Shown: positions 2,925 to 16,778 of the stretch, one piece after another
Layout: each line of letters begins with the position of its first letter
How positions within the stretch are numbered: position 1 is the stretch's first letter
Assembly (NCBI GenBank): GCA_022703155.1
Contig: JAKLEH010000008.1
Span: 1 to 37,044, forward strand
DNA: 37,044 nt
Direction of reading: 5' to 3'
Origin: Patescibacteria group bacterium
Lineage (GTDB): Bacteria; Patescibacteriota; Patescibacteriia; 2-12-FULL-60-25
Program-made: the position numbers and the translations under genes
Notes under the pieces: generated by a model
Seen by the model: the letters and a program-made list of their open reading frames with translations, nothing else
Told to the model about the DNA's origin: nothing
The model's database searches: none

Positions 2925-2938
2925 GTGAGTTGGCGCCC

Positions 2939-2966
2939 TTGACTTTCCCCCATTTTATGCTAGCCT
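2939..2966 (+). promoter_or_regulatory. Putative extended -10 promoter
   Basis: TTGACT, 16 bases, then TAGCCT preceded by TG, resembling the promoter at 1970-1997. A 32-codon reading frame starting at the ATG at 3027 follows without a ribosome site; I could not decide whether it is translated. Otherwise 2857-3153 shows no gene. Confidence 0.35.
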
Positions 2967-3153
2967 TTTCCAACTGACGGAAACGTCGGGAACATTCACA
3001 AATCCACAATCTGCGTCGGTAAAAAAATGAAAACATTAGACACTTGGCGGTTTGAACCGGCGCCACTCTCGCCCGCCGCGACATACGGCTTCGGTCAATC
3101 TATACCAGCAGTTGAGCGGCGGTAACTCTTGGCGTTTGGCGATACGTACTGGC

Positions 3154-3342
3154 TCAAACAAGATGTTTGCCGCCGAACGCCACCAATCTTGCGACGTATC
3201 GATAACTGCGGGCTATGATACGCAACTGTTCAATCCGTCGCTCCAACTCCGCGGATGATTCATATTCTGGCTGATTAGTAGATTCTGATTCGAAATCCGC
3301 GCCAATTTGGGACGTGGGCATGCATGATGAATCGATTACCAT
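3154..3342 (-). CDS. Possible small protein of 62 residues
   Basis: The reading frame from the ATG at 3342 begins with an acidic, polar stretch and ends in a helix-forming part (ELERRIEQLRIIARSYRYVA at about 32-51) with protein-like composition. It is the only sensible frame in an otherwise empty, less GC-rich stretch. There is no family match and no good Shine-Dalgarno site, and it lies divergent from the gene starting at 3440. It may be a real orphan or chance. Confidence 0.35.
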   Translation of the reverse strand: MVIDSSCMPTSQIGADFESESTNQPEYESSAELERRIEQLRIIARSYRYVARLVAFGGKHLV

Positions 3343-3439
3343 GTTGTTACCCGCGGCCCGCCAACCTCCCTCTCGCGACAAAAATATCGAAGTAGCCACA
3401 TACTTCTCGGTTAATCGTCGCGAAACTCTTGAGGCCAGC

Positions 3440-3817
3440 ATGAAAAACACCGACTCCGAACGAACGCTCAAAGCCGTTACCGAATTCCACAGCCTGTGGA
3501 ACAAACTGGGACGCGCCGAGCGCGGACGGGGCGGACTCAAGCTGGCCCTGGCCCGCGAACGTCCGGACCTGTTCCGCGCCCTGCGCCGCGACCCCGCGCT
3601 CATGCGCCGCCTGCCCAAAAAAGTTTTGGACGATTGGGCCGGCAAAAAGCCCGGCGGCGTGGGCGATGAGACGCTGCGCGAGCTTATGCCACGCATCGTG
3701 GCCGCGTGGCGACACGCGCCCACGCCGCGCCCCAAGCTCCAAGACTTCGTCAACGCCCTGCTCGCCGCATGCCCAAGCGCCAAAAAACTGTGCGCGCGGC
3801 TCGACGAGTTAGCGTGA
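3440..3817 (+). CDS. Small uncharacterised protein sharing a C-terminal module with the 2059-2652 protein
   Basis: The 125-residue frame is read from the ATG at 3440, which has GAGG five bases upstream; longer in-frame starts lack this. It is basic and helical, with no signal or membrane segment. Residues 78-120 (LRELMPRIVAAW, then a proline-rich turn, then DFVNALLAACPSAKKL) align well with the C-terminus of the glycosylase-like protein upstream (LLKKHMPNIVKAW, then FLDLLNKLAAEC). The two genes therefore share a helical module by duplication or fusion. Its function is unknown; a small DNA-associated partner is only a guess. Confidence 0.55.
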   Translation: MKNTDSERTLKAVTEFHSLWNKLGRAERGRGGLKLALARERPDLFRALRRDPALMRRLPKKVLDDWAGKKPGGVGDETLRELMPRIVAAWRHAPTPRPKLQDFVNALLAACPSAKKLCARLDELA

Positions 3818-4061
3818 CGGTAAACTCACGTGCGGCTGATATGAAGAGCATTAAGATGCCCTCGACCTCCGCCACACCGACCACGAACCCGTCAACGAAA
3901 TATAAAGGAAGGATCGGATAATCTCTCGCTAATTCGCTGACCCATCTCGTGCCGCGACGAATCAAGTGCATCTAACCTACATGTACCGTTAGGCGCGGCG
4001 TACCTTTTTTCCGCGACGATACAGACGACGAAAAATACGATCCGGATCGTTGCGAAATCTT
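3818..4061. other. Intergenic stretch without a supported gene
   Basis: Short frames exist on both strands, including a hydrophobic minus-strand one overlapping the 3' end of the preceding gene, but none has a ribosome site or recognisable content. Confidence 0.5.
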
Positions 4062-4087
4062 AAAACCAGCTCAAAGCTGGTTTTTTT
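4062..4087 (+). terminator. Rho-independent terminator
   Basis: AAAACCAGCT pairs with AGCTGGTTTT around loop CAA, followed by a T-run. It faces the convergent LOG gene. Confidence 0.75.
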
Positions 4088-4090
4088 CAT

Positions 4091-4199
4091 AAACGTTAAC
4101 TCTCCTGGCCGTTGGCCACCCTCCCTTAACGAGGGAGGGATTTGTTAACCAAACACCAAACCCTTTCTCGTTAAGAGAGGGCAGGGTGAGTTAACGTTT
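4091..4199. repeat. 109-bp element with inverted ends and two internal hairpins
   Basis: The ends AAACGTTAACTC (4091-4102) and GAGTTAACGTTT (4188-4199) are perfect 12-bp inverted repeats. Inside are CCCTCCCTT/GAGGGAGGG and CCCTTTCTCGTTAAGAGAGGG hairpins. The element runs into the LOG stop codon. It could be a miniature mobile element or a bidirectional terminator. Confidence 0.6.
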
Positions 4200-5014
4200 T
4201 ACAAATCCCTCTCCTGGGTTTTCTTGATGATTTCAATCGCCTCTTCGGGCGTGTCCACCACGCGTATAATGTTCAGATCCTCTTTATTGACGTAGGCGTT
4301 CTTTTCAAACAGATATTCGCGCACCCAAGCGATGAAAGGCTCCCAAAAATCGCGGCCCATGAAAATACACGGTATGTTCTTGGGCGATTTGCCGGTTTGG
4401 ATGAGCGCGATGATTTCCGTGGCCTCGTCCAAAGTGCCGAAGCCGCCCGGGAAGAAAACGTAGGCTTGGGCCGACGCGGAGAGCATGACTTTGCGCGTGA
4501 AGAAATAGTGGAAACCGATGGCGCGCGTCACGTATTGGTTGCGGCGCTGTTCCATGGGCAACTCGATATCCAAACCCACGGATTCCCCGCCGCCGTCGAA
4601 CGCGCCTTTGTTGCCCGCCTCCATGATTCCCGGCCCGCCCCCAGTGATGACCGAATAGCCGGCTTCGGCGCACAATTTACCCAACTTGTGCGCCAGATGG
4701 TAATACGGGCTGTCGGGCTTGGTGCGCGCGCTGCCGAAGAACGTGACCTCGTTGTGCAGTTTGGACAGGAATTCAAAACCTTCGATGAACTCGGCCATAA
4801 TGCGGAAGATGCGCCAATACACGTTTTCCGTAAACGAAGGTTTTTCGTAAGGCACGCAACCTTTGCCCGGGTCGCAAATCCATGACACGAAACGCTTTTC
4901 GTTGCCTTGAGCCGAGGACTCCGGCTTGCCTATGGAACTCTTATAAAAAGGCCGTTGCGGTTTTTGACGCGGGGTTTGTTTCATATGTGTTTTGGCAAAA
5001 GGATTCGGTTGCAT
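4199..5014 (-). CDS. LOG family protein (TIGR00730-type Rossmann fold)
   Basis: The 271 residues contain both family signatures: GGGPGIMEAGNKGA and PGGFGTLDE, the nucleotide/phosphoribosyl-binding loops of the lysine-decarboxylase-like LOG family. Characterised members hydrolyse cytokinin riboside monophosphate or related nucleoside monophosphates to base plus ribose 5-phosphate. The physiological substrate in bacteria of this kind is unknown, so nucleotide salvage is an inference. Residues 1-50 are a polar N-terminal extension before the core. The ATG at 5014 follows a GAGTGAG ribosome site; a second ATG lies at 4984. The gene starts four bases after the upstream membrane-protein gene, so the two are co-transcribed. 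Confidence 0.85.
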   Translation of the reverse strand: MQPNPFAKTHMKQTPRQKPQRPFYKSSIGKPESSAQGNEKRFVSWICDPGKGCVPYEKPSFTENVYWRIFRIMAEFIEGFEFLSKLHNEVTFFGSARTKPDSPYYHLAHKLGKLCAEAGYSVITGGGPGIMEAGNKGAFDGGGESVGLDIELPMEQRRNQYVTRAIGFHYFFTRKVMLSASAQAYVFFPGGFGTLDEATEIIALIQTGKSPKNIPCIFMGRDFWEPFIAWVREYLFEKNAYVNKEDLNIIRVVDTPEEAIEIIKKTQERDL

Positions 5015-5018
5015 AGAC

Positions 5019-5525
5019 TCACTCTAAAACCTGTCCGAACGATTTTAGGAAACGCAACAAATTGCGTTTGTTCCAACACGGTCCCAAATTTATTTGGATG
5101 GGGCGCAAGCGGTCTTCGACCGTAATATCAAGCAGATACATGCTGCCGCTCAAACTCACGCCCAAATCCGTAAGCTTAAAACCGCGGATGGCCTCGAGCG
5201 GAATTTTGTACCCTCGACCTAAAAACGCACGGAATTCAAAAAAACCGCCCTCCAGCCGCAAACGCTCGGTCGAACAATTCAAAAGATAGCCCCAACACAC
5301 CAAAGACAACATGGCCACGATGACCAGTTGCAGGCCGTCGAGCCGCGGCATGAGTATCGACAGCACCAAGAACAACGTCAACAGAATGGTGATCGCCAAA
5401 ACCACACCTCCACCGGGCGTCACCACTTCGGCGCGCGTATCCGTCAGCGGCTCTTCCATTGTTGGGATCGGCGGCCGTGCCTTTTTTTCCGCCAAAACCG
5501 TTGGCATGGGGACAGTATAACCCAT
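5019..5525 (-). CDS. Small membrane protein with two helices and a PH-like cytoplasmic domain
   Basis: The 168 residues have a polar N-terminus, two closely spaced hydrophobic helices (about 38-57 and 66-84) and a C-terminal domain of alternating strands (RLRLEGGFFEFRAF, then YKIPLEAIRGFKL). That order is typical of bacterial PH-domain (YdbT/YcxB-like) membrane proteins, but the match is only by pattern. An alternative ATG lies at 5507. The LOG gene begins four bases downstream. Function is unknown. Confidence 0.6.
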   Translation of the reverse strand: MGYTVPMPTVLAEKKARPPIPTMEEPLTDTRAEVVTPGGGVVLAITILLTLFLVLSILMPRLDGLQLVIVAMLSLVCWGYLLNCSTERLRLEGGFFEFRAFLGRGYKIPLEAIRGFKLTDLGVSLSGSMYLLDITVEDRLRPIQINLGPCWNKRNLLRFLKSFGQVLE

Positions 5526-5526
5526 A

Positions 5527-5552
5527 TGGGTCGGTCGGGTCCATCAGGTCGG
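5527..5552. repeat. GGTCGGTC simple-word repeat
   Basis: GGTCGGTCGG-type words occur twice around a short spacer just upstream of the membrane-protein gene. The same word recurs at 22826-22838, before the tRNA-Gly gene. Confidence 0.5.
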
Positions 5553-6930: not shown

Positions 6931-6959
6931 AATCTAGCTTTTTTTTGGTTAAAAGTCAA
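6931..6959 (-). promoter_or_regulatory. Sigma-70 promoter of the histidine phosphatase gene
   Basis: On the minus strand TTGACT, 17 bases, TAGATT, about 80 bases upstream of the start codon, in an AT-rich patch. Confidence 0.6.
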
Positions 6960-7197
6960 GGCTAGGGAGGATGGCCGAGGATTTCGGCTGTATGCCAATC
7001 GAGCTTCGCTAGAAGGCGCAACGTTTGGGCCAGGAAACAAGCAGTCCAATCCGCGGAGGCGGTTCGCGACCGCCTACTTCCTAGTCATGGTTGATACGCT
7101 GCAAAGGCCTGATCGACCGCCCCACGGGGCAACCGACGCCGGCCTTAATTTACCGAAATTGTCCCGAAACCTCGGTCCATCCTCGGGCATATGTTCA

Positions 7198-7364: not shown

Positions 7365-8908
7365 CAGACGTGAATTTGGCCTGTGCCGGAAAAGTTATCC
7401 GGACCGGTCCAGATGCGGCCGATTTGGAACTGCCACAGCAAATCGCGGAAGCCCGCGTCCATCCAATCTTTGCCGTACAATTCCTTGGGCCAAATGAACG
7501 GAAACACCGTATCCACGAGAGTGAGGTATTTGTAGATGGGATGCGCCACGCGGGTGCGGCTGACCAACGACTCTACGTAAGTGGTGATGTCCAGGAGCTG
7601 GATTTCGTGGTTGATGCCACCCCAGCGGCATATGTACTTTTCCGCGCGCCGATCCACGGCCGAATGAGGATTGTTGGGGTCCACGGCGCCGGCGCGCGCC
7701 GCATTCGACATCTGCGCCCAAACCTGGCCCGGATTGGTCACGATAGAACGGCGCAAGTTGTCGGCCACGATCTCCACTTCTGGACCCTGGGAAAAAAACA
7801 CCAAGGTGAAACCGCTGTGGTCCGTGATGTGCTCGGGTTCGCGATACAGCTTGCGGAAGAGTTTGGCGAAGACCATCTCTTTGCGCCGCGTGTCGAAGAA
7901 CACGGGCACGGACTTGCCGTTGTTCGAAGCCACGCGCACGTCGAGCGGCAATACCAGGCGCGCACTGGTCGCGGTTTGGTGCGCTTGCGGGTCGGTCTCG
8001 TCGTACACCTGCAGGCACGGCGCGCCGTCCTCCTTGCGCCGCACGCGGTAGGCGCGCTCGGGGTCGAGCTCGGCCACGACCACCAAACGCCGGCTGCTGC
8101 TCGAATCGAACACCTCGTTCTCGAACACCGCGATCAATTCTTCGCGGACCGCGTCCACGCGTTCCGGATTGTAAGCTCCGAGCAAGTACTCGAACTCCAA
8201 TTGGGACAAGACCGCGATGACGCGCGCCTCAAAACCGATGCGGCGCGAAATCACGCCCTTGGCCGACGCCTGTTTGGGATTTTTGCCGTGCACGTAACCG
8301 GCCAGGCCGATGAGCGTGGGGAAGTCCCGCGCCGCGCGCACGCACGCCGCGAACTCCAATTGTTTGCGGTGCGAGATGGGCACGTAAGCCTCTAGCAGTT
8401 GGTCGATGAAGCCTTGGGTGTTCTTGATGGCTTGCCGCGACAAACGGCGGAACTCGTCCACGTCACCGTTCAAGCCGTACTGCTTGGCGTAGGCCGTGAA
8501 CAAGGCGCGTTCCTGCAATTCGACGGCGCGGCGACGGCGCTCGTTGGCGCACAGGCCGGGCGGCAATTCGCGCAACGCTTCGCGCAACAAGCGGCGCAAC
8601 CGCTTAAAACGGCGGCGTTCGCCCGTCAGCAACGAGCTTTGGCGGATTTCGTCCACGACTTGCCGCGGCGGCGTACCCGGCGGAAAGAACTTGAGCCCGG
8701 GAAACGTCCGGTACACTTCGGCCGCGTGTTCGGCCATGTGTTGGCGGATGACGTTGACGCATTCGGCGTCGAACGCGGCCCGTACCCGATTCCGATCCAG
8801 CGTGTCACCGGCGACCTTGTCCAATTCCTCGGAAATCCGGCGCAACACGCCCAGCTCGCGCGAAGAATGGTAAAAAGCCGGCGGACAGGCGGAACCAAAA
8901 AACCTCAT
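7364..8908 (-). CDS. Uncharacterised 514-residue protein, possibly a diverged RelA/SpoT-like nucleotidyltransferase
   Basis: No confident family. Residues 1-210 are arginine-rich and helical. Residues 275-450 alternate strands and helices: a KLFRKLYREPEHITDHSGF segment (349-367) recalls the K-x-x-R ... I-x-D-x-x-G-x-R block of RelA/SpoT synthetases, and NHEIQLLDITTY (433-444) recalls their E-I-Q-I-R-T strand about 70 residues later. The spacing fits, but the expected arginine after the glycine and the Y-x-S-L-H motif are not clear, so this is a weak lead. No signal peptide or membrane segment. ATG at 8908 follows AAGGAGAAG, and a good promoter and terminator bracket the gene, so it is expressed alone. 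Confidence 0.7.
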   Translation of the reverse strand: MRFFGSACPPAFYHSSRELGVLRRISEELDKVAGDTLDRNRVRAAFDAECVNVIRQHMAEHAAEVYRTFPGLKFFPPGTPPRQVVDEIRQSSLLTGERRRFKRLRRLLREALRELPPGLCANERRRRAVELQERALFTAYAKQYGLNGDVDEFRRLSRQAIKNTQGFIDQLLEAYVPISHRKQLEFAACVRAARDFPTLIGLAGYVHGKNPKQASAKGVISRRIGFEARVIAVLSQLEFEYLLGAYNPERVDAVREELIAVFENEVFDSSSSRRLVVVAELDPERAYRVRRKEDGAPCLQVYDETDPQAHQTATSARLVLPLDVRVASNNGKSVPVFFDTRRKEMVFAKLFRKLYREPEHITDHSGFTLVFFSQGPEVEIVADNLRRSIVTNPGQVWAQMSNAARAGAVDPNNPHSAVDRRAEKYICRWGGINHEIQLLDITTYVESLVSRTRVAHPIYKYLTLVDTVFPFIWPKELYGKDWMDAGFRDLLWQFQIGRIWTGPDNFSGTGQIHV

Positions 8909-12174: not shown

Positions 12175-12229
12175 ATGCGATTCTCAGTTGTCATGCGAGT
12201 CTAGACAAAATATATAAAACGCAAAAAAT

Positions 12230-12252
12230 AACGCTTAAAACAAGCGTTTTTT
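12230..12252 (+). terminator. Rho-independent terminator
   Basis: AACGCTT pairs with AAGCGTT around AAAAC, followed by a T-run, in an AT-rich stretch. It insulates the promoter at 12338. Confidence 0.7.
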
Positions 12253-12337
12253 GTATTAAAATTTTTAGCTAAAATTAGCCATTCTTTTAATTTTGGCTCA
12301 ACTTAGACGAATGATCTTTAAGATGTACTTGCCACTC

Positions 12338-12376
12338 TTGACAAAACCTCAATTTTGTGATATATTAACGCGTTAA
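12338..12376 (+). promoter_or_regulatory. Consensus sigma-70 promoter with a palindromic operator-like site
   Basis: TTGACA (12338-12343), 17 bases, TATATT (12361-12366): the best promoter in the window. The perfect 12-bp palindrome TTAACGCGTTAA (12365-12376) overlaps the -10 and the expected start site, a classic repressor position. Confidence 0.75.
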
Positions 12377-12381
12377 CAAAA

Positions 12382-12740
12382 TCCGTAAATCAACGGACCT
12401 CGACAATTTGTCGCCAAAAACCCGCACAAGCCGAACCCCTTAAAACAGGGTTTCCGTCCATAAAAGACGGAATTAATGCGGGTCTTCGGCGAGGACACGA
12501 GAACGCGCATTGCGCATCGCAAAACGCGCAACGTCGGATTCCGGCGTTTCGCGCTACACGTTGCGCGTTACACGTCCCTCGTGTCCCACAGATTTCGGAT
12601 GTCCGGAGACCACAACTGGAATGACGTGCCTCAGCGGCCGTATCGCCTTTTGGGTCAAAAGACATGGTCCGCGAAATGCGGCCTTTGCGCATGCTCATCC
12701 ATGCGCCTACCACTCCACCTTCAACTGCCGGATGAGCGGC
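12382..12740 (+). ncRNA. Highly structured 5' leader, candidate cis-regulatory RNA
   Basis: Between the promoter and the ATG at 12769 lie many exact stems: TCCGT/ACGGA (12382-12397), CGACA/TGTCG (12401-12413), ACCCGCA (12420-12426) with TGCGGGT (12477-12483) enclosing AACCC/GGGTT (12434-12452) and TTCCGTC/GACGGAA (12452-12472), a three-way junction; GGACACGAG (12493-12501) with CTCGTGTCC (12578-12586) enclosing a perfect 12-bp stem AACGCGCAACGT (12523-12534) with ACGTTGCGCGTT (12558-12569); GCGCATG/CATGCGC (12687-12706); and GCCG/CGGC (12727-12740). It does not show the hallmarks of RNase P RNA, tmRNA or SRP RNA. No T-run follows, so it appears to be part of the mRNA. Confidence 0.55.
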
Positions 12741-12768
12741 AAGACATTGTTCCCGGGAGATAAACAAC

Positions 12769-13734
12769 ATGTCGAACAACACCAGCGTCGTCGTCACCGT
12801 CAGCACCGTGGTCGCCAACACCTGCGACAAGTGCGGCGCGAGCGTCAAGAACCCTCAGCACAAGCTGTGTGCCGAGTGCTTCAAGAAGCTTCCCAAGAAG
12901 GCGCCGGCGCCCAAGCCGGCTGCGGTCGCCCCGACTGCTCCGGCGCCCGTCGCCGTCACCGTGACCCCGGTCGCAACGCCCGCCCCGGCCGTAGAAGCCC
13001 CCAAGGCCGAGACCAAGCCGGTCGTGGCGCCCGCGCCCGTCGCCGCCCCGGCTGCCCGCCCCGCGCCCGAGCGTCCCGCGCACATCACGGTCAAGAAGTG
13101 CGCCTGCGGCAACTCCTTCGTGCCCCGCGATCCGCGCCACGAGAAGTGCCCGACCTGCCACAAGAAGGTCATGGACGCACGCCGGGCCGAGGACGCGAAG
13201 CGCGACGCCGAGCGCAAGGCCGAGGACGAGCGCCGCGCTTCGCAGAAGACGCTCCTCACGGCGTACCGCAACGGCACGCTGCCCAAGGACGCCAAGGTCC
13301 GCGAGAACGGCGCGCAGATCGTGATCTGCATCAACGGCGTGTCCACCACGCTGTACGACCACGAGGGCTTCAACGCCCGTCGCGAAGCCGCCCGGTACGC
13401 CGAGACCCTCAAGGCCAAGGCCGCCGCGGACAAGGCGCGCGTCGATGCGGAGAAGGCTGCGGCCGCCAAGGTTCACCACGACCGCGCGGCCAAGGCGCTG
13501 TTCCAGGCCTTGCAGTCCGGCAAGGCGCTCCCCCCGACCATCACGGTCAAGCGCAGCGGCGTGAACGTCCTGTTCACGGTCAGCGTGGTCGGCAAGGCTC
13601 CGGTCACCTACACCGCGGTCGACCCCGATCTCGCGGCTGCCGAAGACGCGGCACGCAAGGCGGCCGAATCCGCGGCCAAGGCAGCGCGCAAGCAGTCCGA
13701 GAAGAAGGGCGGCAAGAAGGGCAAGGCCGCCTAG
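12769..13734 (+). CDS. Zinc-ribbon protein with Ala/Pro linker and charged coiled-coil
   Basis: The 321 residues contain two four-cysteine knuckles: CDKCGASVKNPQHKLCAEC (19-37) and KKCACGNSF followed by KCPTC. An Ala/Pro/Val linker (about 47-105) separates them, and a long Lys/Ala/Arg/Glu helical region follows, holding two similar segments: TLLTAYRNGTLPKDAKV ... GAQIVICINGVSTTLYD and ALFQALQSGKALPPTITV ... GVNVLFTVSVVGKAPVTYT. These two repeats, about 45 residues each, look like an internal duplication. No signal peptide. The codons are very GC-rich (AAG over AAA, GCC, GTC), unlike neighbouring genes. Zinc ribbons usually bind nucleic acid or protein; the function is unknown. Confidence 0.7.
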   Translation: MSNNTSVVVTVSTVVANTCDKCGASVKNPQHKLCAECFKKLPKKAPAPKPAAVAPTAPAPVAVTVTPVATPAPAVEAPKAETKPVVAPAPVAAPAARPAPERPAHITVKKCACGNSFVPRDPRHEKCPTCHKKVMDARRAEDAKRDAERKAEDERRASQKTLLTAYRNGTLPKDAKVRENGAQIVICINGVSTTLYDHEGFNARREAARYAETLKAKAAADKARVDAEKAAAAKVHHDRAAKALFQALQSGKALPPTITVKRSGVNVLFTVSVVGKAPVTYTAVDPDLAAAEDAARKAAESAAKAARKQSEKKGGKKGKAA

Positions 13735-13764
13735 CCCTCATCCCTCGGATCGTTCATTTCAACT

Positions 13765-13803
13765 AGGTCTTTCTCGGCACATCACTCTCGATGTGCCGGA
13801 CCT
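13765..13803 (+). other. Strong hairpin after the zinc-ribbon gene
   Basis: AGGTC and CGGCACATC (13765-13783) pair with GATGTGCCG and GACCT (13790-13803) around loop ACTCTC. There is no T-run, so it may stabilise or process the transcript and not terminate it. Confidence 0.55.
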
Positions 13804-13807
13804 AAAT

Positions 13808-13855
13808 GCGTACCGGTACCGACATGCCGTCGGCACGGGTCCGCTCAAGGATCAA
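13808..13855 (+). repeat. 48-nt leader element, copy 1
   Basis: Identical to 14139-14186 except for two bases. It folds: ACCGGTACCGAC (13812-13823) pairs with GTCGGCACGGGT (13829-13840) around loop ATGCC with two mismatches. The ribosome site GAGGTG and the ATG of the 67-residue membrane protein follow within 16 bases. Confidence 0.8.
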
Positions 13856-13870
13856 AACCAGAGGTGTTCC

Positions 13871-14074
13871 ATGGAAGCTCTTGCTATCGTCAGCTTGATC
13901 GGTTGTCTCTTCGTCCTGGCCGCCGTCGCCGGTTATGCAAACTTCTGCCGCGCGGCCGCGAACGTCGGATGCCGCATGGTCTCGATTCCGGCGCTTCCGC
14001 CCATCGCGGCCGTGGCCGACGAGTTCGACCTGTTCGAGGCCTCGCCCTCGCTCATCGACCGCCTCGCCGCGTAA
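13871..14074 (+). CDS. Small membrane protein of 67 residues
   Basis: ATG at 13871 follows GAGGTG. The N-terminal half is one hydrophobic helix (LAIVSLIGCLFVLAAVAGYA at 4-23), then a short alanine-rich, polar C-terminus ending in EFDLFEASPSLIDRLAA. No family is recognised. It is preceded by the 48-nt hairpin element, as is the next gene, which suggests shared control at the RNA level. Confidence 0.65.
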   Translation: MEALAIVSLIGCLFVLAAVAGYANFCRAAANVGCRMVSIPALPPIAAVADEFDLFEASPSLIDRLAA

Positions 14075-14138
14075 CCACACCCTACCTTCGAACATTCAAA
14101 GGTTCGGCGCGCCGGTCCTCGACGCGCCCATCCCCACT

Positions 14139-14186
14139 GCGCACCGGTACCGACATGCCGTCGGCACGGGTCCGCTGAAGGATCAA
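14139..14186 (+). repeat. 48-nt leader element, copy 2
   Basis: 46 of 48 bases match copy 1 at 13808-13855. The same hairpin is kept (14143-14154 with 14160-14171). GAGGTG and the ATG of a 26-residue peptide follow, as for copy 1. The differences (T/C at the fourth base, C/G in the 3' part) fall outside the stem. Confidence 0.8.
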
Positions 14187-14197
14187 CGAGGTGACAC

Positions 14198-14278
14198 ATG
14201 GCCAAAATTTCCGGAGGACTCATCATCGTAATTGTGGTGGTTGCGGCAATCCTGCACCACTGCGGTGCATTCAACTGA
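14198..14278 (+). CDS. 26-residue single-helix membrane peptide
   Basis: ATG at 14198 has GAGGTG upstream. The peptide is a short polar start, a run GGLIIVIVVVAAIL, then HHCGAFN. This is a typical one-pass small membrane protein. It ends 11 bases before the DUF1232 gene, so both are probably translated from one message. It could alternatively be a leader peptide. Confidence 0.55.
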   Translation: MAKISGGLIIVIVVVAAILHHCGAFN

Positions 14279-14289
14279 CGGAGGACGAG

Positions 14290-14712
14290 ATGGACAACAA
14301 GCAAGCGATGGTACGACGGCGCCTCGGCGCCTTGCCGCTCGTCGCCGCGCGGCTCGAATCGATTTGGGCCGTGCTCAGGGACAGGAAACGCGGATGGGTC
14401 TACTGGACCGTCCTGACGCTGGCGGTGTTGTACATCGTCTCGCCGTTGGACTTCATCCCAGACCCGGTCTTGATCCTGGGCCAACTCGACGACCTGCTCG
14501 TCACGCTGGCGACCGCGGTCCTGGTGATCCGCAGGGCGGAGAACTTCTATGCCTCCATTCGCGAGCGCAAGGAAGTCGAAGCCGAACTCGAGGCCCACGT
14601 GCCCAAGCTCGGCGAGCCGTCCGCGGTGCCAGGCCTCGGAACCAAGGGCGACGAAGTGCCGCCGCTGGTCACGGACATCAAGTCCGGAGCCGGTTCGGCC
14701 AACGTCCCCTAG
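14290..14712 (+). CDS. DUF1232 (YkvA-like) membrane protein
   Basis: The 140 residues contain the family signature LYIVSPLDFIPDPVLILGQLDDLLV (given here from about residue 47 in two parts: LYIVSPLDFIPD and LGQLDDLLV), a hydrophobic hairpin of two helices. The rest is a basic N-terminus and a polar tail of about 55 residues. DUF1232 proteins are small, widespread and of unknown function. ATG at 14290 is set by GGAGGA five bases upstream. It ends the small-protein operon. Confidence 0.8.
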   Translation: MDNKQAMVRRRLGALPLVAARLESIWAVLRDRKRGWVYWTVLTLAVLYIVSPLDFIPDPVLILGQLDDLLVTLATAVLVIRRAENFYASIRERKEVEAELEAHVPKLGEPSAVPGLGTKGDEVPPLVTDIKSGAGSANVP

Positions 14713-14746
14713 TCCGCGCCCGATTCCTCGGGTCCGGACACTCAAG

Positions 14747-14773
14747 AACGCGCCATACTCCACGGCGCGTTTT
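14747..14773 (+). terminator. Terminator of the small-protein operon
   Basis: AACGCGCC pairs with GGCGCGTT around a 9-base loop, followed by TTTT. Confidence 0.7.
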
Positions 14774-14781
14774 GAAGTTAA

Positions 14782-14876
14782 AAAAATCCCCTCCTTGATA
14801 AGGAGGGGTTAGGGGCGGTTTCAATTTACAACGACACACCTCTCCCAACCTCCCCTCATAAAGGGGAGGAGAAAAC
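14782..14876. repeat. Paired CCCCTCC palindromic repeats
   Basis: CCCCTCCTT/AGGAGGGG with loop GATA (14788-14808) and CCTCCCCT/AGGGGAGG (14849-14869) flank a GGGGCGGTTT-type spacer. It lies between two converging genes and may also stop transcription. Related to 1825-1960 and 2661-2706. Confidence 0.65.
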
Positions 14877-14879
14877 ACT

Positions 14880-16778
14880 TCATTTCACATCCTTCCGAAC
14901 AACGCCTTTGCCTTTGGCCGTTTCGTCGTTCTGCAGATCCGTGGTCAAGGCTTTGGAACTTTGCATGAGCGGCTCGTTGATGTCCTCGTCTTGGGCTTGG
15001 AACGTGGCCTCGCCCAGCAGTTGCGCAAAGCGTCCGTCGTCAGCCAATGTGGGCGTGAGTTCCACGTCGAATTCCACTTCAGCGCCGTTCACGTTCGCGG
15101 GCAAACGGTTGAGCGCCCATTTGACTTCGCGCTTGTCCGCGTCGTAGGCCAAAGCCCCGGCCGTGCTCGTGGCCAAAGACACGAACCTGGCGTTGCGCGG
15201 CAGCACGGCCACGGCTTCCATGTCTTTGAGCGCATGGATTTTTTTGTCCACGGACCAGACGATGCGATACGTCGTCGGTTCCCCGACTTTTGGCGGCAGA
15301 GGTCCGGAGCCGATAGGCGCGCCTTCCTCCGTATAAAATCTGGCCTGCGACGAGAAACGCGCGTCCGAACGCAACTTGAACACCATGGGCGCCATTTGCA
15401 CCGAGCGTTTTATTTTTCCGACCTCCATGTCCGCAATCACGGTCAACCGTACGGCCATGGGACGCGTGCCCGTGGCGTTCGGCGATATGGCCAGAAGCGT
15501 TTCCAATTCGCCTAGGCCGTGCGGCGCAATTTCCTTAAACTCGCTTTTAGCCTTGGCGTCCCACACCAAACGCCTGCCTTCCAACGTCGAGGACGAGGCT
15601 TTGGCGGCCGCGGCCAAATCCACCAGCTGGAATTTGTCCAAGACCTCCTGGCCTTGGTCCAGTGCGACGGTTTCCACGGCCAATTGGATTTTTACGTTCT
15701 TGAGCGGTTCGTCGGCCGTATTTTCGAAACCAATGGCCGTTTGCAATTGGTCGCCAAAACCCAAACTGCGTGTCGCCTGGTCCGAACCGTTGACCACGAG
15801 CTTGAGCGAAAGGTCACCGGCCAGCACCGGAAAGGCGGCTTCGGATTTTTGCATCATGGAAAAATTCCCGTCTTGTCCGAGAATGCCTGTCTGGCCAACG
15901 ACTTTGGCGTCGCCGCCAAAACCAGAGGCGAACACTCCCACTACGCTGATTTCAGTGGAGCTCGCGGCCGCGAGCGGCGCCAAAGGCAACTTGTAGGTCC
16001 GGCCTTCCAGTTTGGCTTGGCCCAAATTCTTGTCGTCGGGCGTGAATCCGTCAGGCAATCCCACGCGCGCCTCCAATCCTTCCATCGTATCGCGGCCCGT
16101 GTTCTTCACGTGGTACAGTAGCGCGATGTGGTCGCCGGGCACGGCCTTTTCCGGAACTTGGATCCAACCTTCGAGCACGGATTGCGAATAGGTTACGTTC
16201 TTGGCCGCTATGGCTTGCATGTCTTTGGCTGCGCCGGACGAGCGGTACGCGGCCATGGCCTGCACCGCGGAGAGCGTGCCGAGCGCGCCCGTGAATTTTC
16301 CGCGGACCGTGACCGTGCCCGATTGTTCCGCGGCCAAAGCGCCCAAGCGCCACAAGCCAGCGCCAGACGGTTCGGGCAAATTCTTGGTGGCCGAAAAATC
16401 ATTCGGAAAATTGATGCGCAATTCCACGTTGGACAAAGGCTCGTTGAGCGGGTTGCGGTAATTTATGAAATACGTGACCTCTTGGCCCACGGTTATCTGT
16501 TCCGGACCTTCGATGGCCAAGTCCAGTTTTTCGTTGACAAAACCGCTCAAACCCTGAAAATACAAAAAACCCGTCCAAGCCGCGGCGGCCAAAACCAAAA
16601 AAACCGCGGACACGCCCAAAGTCAACCAAATCCAACGGTGGCTGCGTTTGCGTTCCAATTTGGTCAAATCCGGCAAATCGCCGTTCTCCACCTGGTAAAT
16701 GGCGCGCAAGCTCTGTTCGACTTCATCGTCGCGGCGATCTTCGTCGCGGCGTTTTTTTGGTTCATCGCGACGTTTCAT
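14880..16778 (-). CDS. Membrane-anchored surface protein with DUF11/Ig-like repeats
   Basis: The 632 residues have a charged cytoplasmic N-terminus (Arg/Asp/Glu-rich to about 48), one membrane helix (about 49-73) and a large extracellular part of repeated beta-domains. Each repeat has the pattern of DUF11 modules: V-G-x-x-V-T-Y-x-I-x-Y-x-N-P-x-N-E-P-L near 98, then YHVKNTGRD and IGFENTADEPLKNV. Such domains form elongated stalks or surface lattices. The start codon overlaps the end of the DUF4012 gene by 17 bases, so translation is coupled. It is the last gene of the envelope operon. Confidence 0.75.
   Translation of the reverse strand: MKRRDEPKKRRDEDRRDDEVEQSLRAIYQVENGDLPDLTKLERKRSHRWIWLTLGVSAVFLVLAAAAWTGFLYFQGLSGFVNEKLDLAIEGPEQITVGQEVTYFINYRNPLNEPLSNVELRINFPNDFSATKNLPEPSGAGLWRLGALAAEQSGTVTVRGKFTGALGTLSAVQAMAAYRSSGAAKDMQAIAAKNVTYSQSVLEGWIQVPEKAVPGDHIALLYHVKNTGRDTMEGLEARVGLPDGFTPDDKNLGQAKLEGRTYKLPLAPLAAASSTEISVVGVFASGFGGDAKVVGQTGILGQDGNFSMMQKSEAAFPVLAGDLSLKLVVNGSDQATRSLGFGDQLQTAIGFENTADEPLKNVKIQLAVETVALDQGQEVLDKFQLVDLAAAAKASSSTLEGRRLVWDAKAKSEFKEIAPHGLGELETLLAISPNATGTRPMAVRLTVIADMEVGKIKRSVQMAPMVFKLRSDARFSSQARFYTEEGAPIGSGPLPPKVGEPTTYRIVWSVDKKIHALKDMEAVAVLPRNARFVSLATSTAGALAYDADKREVKWALNRLPANVNGAEVEFDVELTPTLADDGRFAQLLGEATFQAQDEDINEPLMQSSKALTTDLQNDETAKGKGVVRKDVK

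Follow-up and report, generated by a model that had tools for sequence, protein, structure and literature searches.

A candidate RNA control element of a fast-evolving rnc-DUF11 operon in one genus of Patescibacteria

RNAs that sequester the Shine-Dalgarno (SD) sequence, such as riboswitch expression platforms, ROSE and fourU thermometers, and ribosomal-protein leaders, have a structured fold immediately upstream of the start codon. Intercistronic stem-loops form another general class, which stabilise or process polycistronic mRNA. At a much larger scale are ornate RNAs, i.e., GOLLD, ROOL, and OLE (PMC12286853). Few cis-acting RNAs have been described in Patescibacteria, and in a brief and limited literature search, we found none at this level.

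Here, we consider a 37,044-nucleotide stretch of patescibacterial DNA (referred to below as the window), in which a near-identical hairpin stands ahead of two short genes. An earlier note on this DNA took the hairpin for a control element (riboswitch, thermosensor, or protein site) of a small-protein family. Because a similar and better-supported element stands before other genes of this operon in related genomes, we propose instead that the hairpins probably mark an RNA control element of the operon. Our best explanation, which we favor with some reserve, ties this element to a single fast-evolving operon, located between rnc and a DUF11 gene in one genus of Patescibacteria; the window hairpins would be its local version, and the element would act on the mRNA. 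The RNA element of this operon is probably previously undescribed.

The duplicated hairpin and its operon

The operon occupies the stretch from rnc to the DUF11 gene, which varies from genome to genome. Apart from cases where a contig breaks off, both flanks are shared across the genus, and what they enclose differs and changes fast; in other genomes of the family, similar segments are short. In the window, the operon lies on the forward strand and likely starts from a promoter at 12338 to 12366 (TTGACA-17-TATATT with a TG before the second hexamer, 11/12 in a consensus scan), and in relatives a similar TTGACA...TGTGCTATATTA or TGTGATATATTA precedes this operon. There follows a long structured leader (12367 to 12768), with fold z-scores of -3.8 and -3.4 in its first two thirds and -0.7 in its last third, and then the operon's first gene (12769 to 13734), which encodes a zinc-ribbon protein with CxC/CxxC motifs and a K/G-rich tail. 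This protein has weak DZR matches in Pfam, under the cut-off, and counterparts at the same locus in six relatives; a profile of its family, run against a sample of the class, matched essentially only within the genus. Zinc-ribbon-like ORF segments with 40 to 44% identity over part of the window protein occur in G010 (L035 and L039), and the one in L035 stands, by reading, outside the present operon context.

The remaining genes are short. The ORF list places a 67-aa ORF with an N-terminal hydrophobic segment at 13871 to 14074 and a 26-aa hydrophobic ORF at 14198 to 14278, and the last gene (14290 to 14712) encodes a DUF1232 (YkvA-like) protein (PF06803, E 7e-10), with GGAGGA in front and no hairpin element. 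The 67-aa ORF has no Pfam match and shares 16 to 25% identity with small ORFs in the operons of G004, G007, and G008, to which it is possibly, on weak support, orthologous. By reading of the sequences, DUF1232-like genes terminate the operons of G007 and G008, and short hydrophobic ORFs end those of G001 to G003 and G005; eight operon proteins of relatives gave no Pfam match. Two further observations concern the surroundings of the operon. CCCCTCC-type inverted repeats, one of them terminator-like on the minus strand, follow it in the window (14786 to 14870), and translations of G002 (L027, ~2931 to 5325) reveal, between rnc and the operon, one ORF resembling pyrF and two resembling pyrE, which are not seen in the window.

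The 48-nt repeat lies directly ahead of the two hydrophobic ORFs, and its copies (copy a, 13808 to 13855; copy b, 14139 to 14186; both on the forward strand) are, exactly as first noticed, identical at 46 of 48 bases. A 29-nt core pattern allowing up to 3 mismatches matched these two copies alone in the 1.23-Mb genome, and when the window was shuffled 100 times with dinucleotides preserved, a 22-nt core had no match. Each 51-nt copy folds into an identical hairpin with a loop of AUGCC at -19.8 kcal/mol; the shared hairpin had been noticed earlier as 12 bp with two mismatches, a slight underestimate of the 13 pairs and three 1x1 mismatches computed here. The sequence GAGGTG-N4-ATG follows in both cases, as previously observed, with the ATG 15 nt (copy a) and 11 nt (copy b) after the element. 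These SD-like hexamers (13861 to 13866 and 14188 to 14193) lie 1 to 5 nt past the repeat, outside P0 and P1 (the two helices described below), and are unsequestered.

The claim that the DNA around the copies does not align was only partly right. A repeat of 69 nt at 86% identity is present, and the upstream flanks align weakly, at a score reached in 2 of 1,000 shuffles and in 6 of 1,000 random window segments. Weak alignment runs through the intergenic regions as wholes and takes in an upstream hairpin that in copy a has a 9-bp stem in the minimum free energy (MFE) structure (13775 to 13798) and in copy b is likewise present in the MFE structure (14106 to 14128). From copy a to copy b, A-U pairs of this upstream hairpin are replaced by G-C pairs at two positions, two compensating changes read from the alignment. 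Between the upstream hairpin and the SD, the MFE structure of 13772 to 13857 has an outer helix, P0 (GACCU / AGG-A-UC), an internal loop (AAAU/UCA), and the P1 hairpin, together spanning 13799 to 13853 in copy a; in copy b, the MFE structure of the whole intergenic region has P0 (AUCC/GGAU), a 5/4-nt internal loop, and P1 at 14130 to 14183. The fold z-scores are modest for the 51-nt copies (-1.9 and -1.6) and amount to -4.6 (copy a) and -2.3 (copy b) for the intergenic regions and to -5.2 (copy a) and -0.9 (copy b) for the two-hairpin module. Folding beyond that of shuffled sequences is thus clear for the region of copy a and weak for that of copy b.

Searches for the window hairpin itself returned little. 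The route that had been proposed, a covariance model built from both window copies (R1), led nowhere, with no match outside the hairpin's own genome among 41 genomes of the family. Exact or near-exact patterns of the repeat were absent from 96 relatives and from viral contigs, and a phage, plasmid, or viral origin was rejected for want of a match. At gathering thresholds, Rfam recognized only tRNAs in the window; at E<=1, the segment from 12300 to 14850 gave only sub-threshold matches to microRNA models and no riboswitch, thermometer, or leader family.

A structured, covarying element in related operons

We compared eight relatives of the genus (G001 to G008), of which the named ones are Patescibacteria metagenome-assembled genomes. 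Five of the eight carry, at this locus only, a structured element composed of P0, an asymmetric internal loop, and P1, which is absent from G004, G007, and G008. A model (R2) was built from eight copies, the intergenic repeats of G001, G002, G003, and G005, without the window or G006. RNAalifold gives these copies a P0 of 3 bp and a P1 of 11 bp, with 5 of the 14 pairs changed on both sides, and 99% of the cells in the alignment are paired, against 34 to 61% in slid controls. None of 500 shuffles reached the covariation score, which also greatly exceeded that of the slid controls; since the shuffle control ignores relatedness, more weight falls on the slid controls and on a copy that the model newly found. 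That ninth copy lies at the same locus in G006 (E 3e-7 over 141 kb; 3e-6 in the G006 genome), and counts over nine copies, in an alignment fitted to the model, are the same in kind as those over eight.

Searched over 381 genomes of the class, R2 matched in the five relatives alone and nowhere outside the genus. All nine copies lie at this locus on the coding strand, and an ATG follows 4 to 14 nt downstream of the element in seven of them. The expectations that had been attached to the window hairpin, i.e., start codons just downstream and compensating changes in the stem, are therefore borne out by the relatives' model. Downstream of the copies, the ORFs range from 36 to 220 aa and mostly show no relation to one another, so that a small-protein family is not supported, and no convincing ORF stands behind the copies G001b and G006. 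In sum, the structure, the compensatory changes, the position before ATGs, and the restriction to this locus are all established for the relatives.

The predicted structures also point to alternative folds. P0 and P1, with an SD-like GGGAG in P0, form the MFE structure of G003a, G003b, G005, G002a, and G002b, and the longer SD-like AAGGGAG lies inside P0 in several copies. In several copies, P1 faces competition for its 3' arm from a second hairpin, P2; P2 is missing in G001b and G006 and takes the place of P0 and P1 in the MFE structures of G001a and G003c. Separately, in the same operon of G007 (L032), three hairpins with differing stems stand, by reading, directly before AAGGAG (5498 to 5533, 6931 to 6967, and 7886 to 7921), which suggests that the operon tolerates different hairpins just before the SD.

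Do the window copies belong to this element?

An alignment (A3) places the window copies in register with the relatives' element, with AAAUG or CACUG before the stem and U[CG]AAGG after it. Combined with the MFE structures, it gives both window copies the same fold of P0 and P1 on either side of an asymmetric internal loop, with U[CG]AAGG following. A structural descriptor, written after both sets had been seen, matches only the two copies in the window, against 0.075 matches expected in shuffles. The placement also agrees, i.e., in the rnc-DUF11 operon, on the sense strand, and closely before an ATG. Score is another matter. Within 12200 to 15000 (2.8 kb), copy b is the best match to R2 (10.9 bits, E 0.057) but copy a comes only fifth (5.3 bits, E 1.7), and at genome scale the model does not find the window copies. 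Because the architecture is shared but the match to R2 is weak, the window copies are likely, though unproven, divergent members of the relatives' element. The earlier idea of a structured RNA before start codons is accordingly supported in the relatives, whereas the window copies fit it by architecture and position and only weakly by score.

Could the window repeat instead be an unrelated, species-specific duplication of two hairpins and a ribosome-binding region, alike through recent origin or gene conversion and without a regulatory role? There are only two copies, confined to one genome; they match the relatives' model weakly, and their weak homology spans the whole intergenic region, all of which speak for a duplication. 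Against it, identity is concentrated in the hairpin and the adjacent ORFs are dissimilar, in agreement with the earlier remark that the genes differ; moreover, the upstream hairpin has its two compensating changes, four other species have structured elements before ORFs at the same locus, and both the register and the internal loop agree with those elements. We consider such a duplication fairly unlikely.

The wider locus raises a different issue. The leaders of G001, G002, G003, G005, and G006 all contain GAGGAGAGA, rare in shuffled leaders (<=5/2000), with GAGGAG predicted in a hairpin loop. RNAalifold returns a slightly unfavorable covariation term for the leader, so its structure is supported by folding and a few pairs only. 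At the other end, strong folding is seen in the 3' region of the three relatives tested (z -7.8, -7.8, and -4.1), and in the sense-orientation 3'-module folds examined, UCUCUCCUC is unpaired; no pair count is claimed for this module, where MAFFT places G003 out of register and aligns G001 and G006 wrongly at their 3' ends. In L026, L027, L028, L029, and L031, the leader's GAGGAGAGA is perfectly complementary to UCUCUCCUC. Since neither side varies, long-range pairing between the two is no more than a possibility, and the window contains neither motif. G006 (L031) offers a remnant of the operon (minus strand, ~10820 to 10010), with a promoter, the leader, a truncated zinc-ribbon ORF, one element, and the strongly folded 3' module, and by reading there is no other clear ORF; judged by its sequence, this operon has lost its ORFs and kept the leader, the element, and the 3' module. 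In G008 (L030), a segment upstream of the zinc-ribbon gene (8439 to 8526) is predicted to fold like a cloverleaf, closed by an 8-bp stem and with a T-arm-like hairpin, and neither ARAGORN nor Rfam calls it.

One could read the intergenic elements as parts of a single long structured RNA or RNP with embedded, replaceable ORFs, in which the leader's GAGGAG loop could pair with a CUCUCUCCUC bulge of the 3' module. The composition of the G006 remnant, the loop predicted in five of five leaders, the unpaired UCUCUCCUC, the strong 3' folds, and an Rfam search of G001 and G002 that returned nothing relevant at E<=1 are all consistent with this idea. However, the 5'-3' pairing is invariant and hence gains nothing from covariation, the window operon contains neither motif, the ORFs are intact in most relatives, and G006 may simply be decaying; we regard the long RNA as improbable. 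We hold as doubtful, and offer only as speculation, a genus-specific RNA platform in which a 5' module with a GAGGAG loop, repeated intercistronic modules, and a 3' module with a complementary CUCUCUCCUC bulge carry small ORFs that change fast and can be outlived by the RNA parts.

That the repeats are DNA sites, either an operator recognized by a DNA-binding protein or recombination sites through which gene cassettes are shuffled, is very improbable: the gene content of the relatives' operons varies while the intergenic elements persist, and the copies within the window genome are near-identical, but one P1 pair is U-G in nine of nine relatives' copies and other pairs switch between C-G, U-A, and U-G, as expected of an RNA and not of a DNA palindrome, and orientation and distance to the ATG are fixed, with no recombinase noticed in the operon.

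Proposed role and comparison with known systems

The preferred reading, an operon-specific element that acts on the mRNA, suggests the following mechanism. In the transcript, each copy would form a long stem, followed across an asymmetric internal loop by a short outer helix that closes it just upstream of the next cistron's ribosome-binding site. We posit that the element would set the timing and strength of translation of that cistron and/or mark a protected or processed 5' end of the mRNA. The most likely role, in our model, would thus be control of translation start or mRNA processing of the next cistron. In several relatives, the AAGGGAG in the outer helix, together with the competition between P1 and another hairpin, looks like an open/closed switch. 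Direct masking of the SD would fit some relatives, in which AAGGGAG is paired in P0, but not the window, where the SD is not base-paired within the element; because the SD there lies outside the helix, insulation or processing is more likely than masking.

An element that stands before different genes of one operon, covaries, and possibly masks the SD would be a compact system in which to study how bacteria with tiny genomes adjust per-cistron output. Such a system would also address why the operon swaps genes yet retains RNA structures.

The likeness to large ornate RNAs such as GOLLD, ROOL, and OLE extends only to the wider locus, where relatives have large, strongly folded RNA segments; unlike in those RNAs, ORFs are embedded here, and neither the window nor G001 or G002 has an Rfam match to these families. 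The resemblance to SD-sequestering RNAs is closer, in that several relatives have the SD in a helix and a competing helix that overlaps one arm. Unlike those RNAs, however, this element is repeated in one operon before unrelated genes, is restricted to a genus, has no Rfam match, and in the window leaves the SD outside the helix. With regard to a riboswitch, no gene related to a ligand was identified. With the intercistronic stem-loops that stabilise or process mRNA, it has in common that stable hairpins lie between the cistrons of an operon, but here one and the same element recurs before several cistrons, at the ribosome-binding site.
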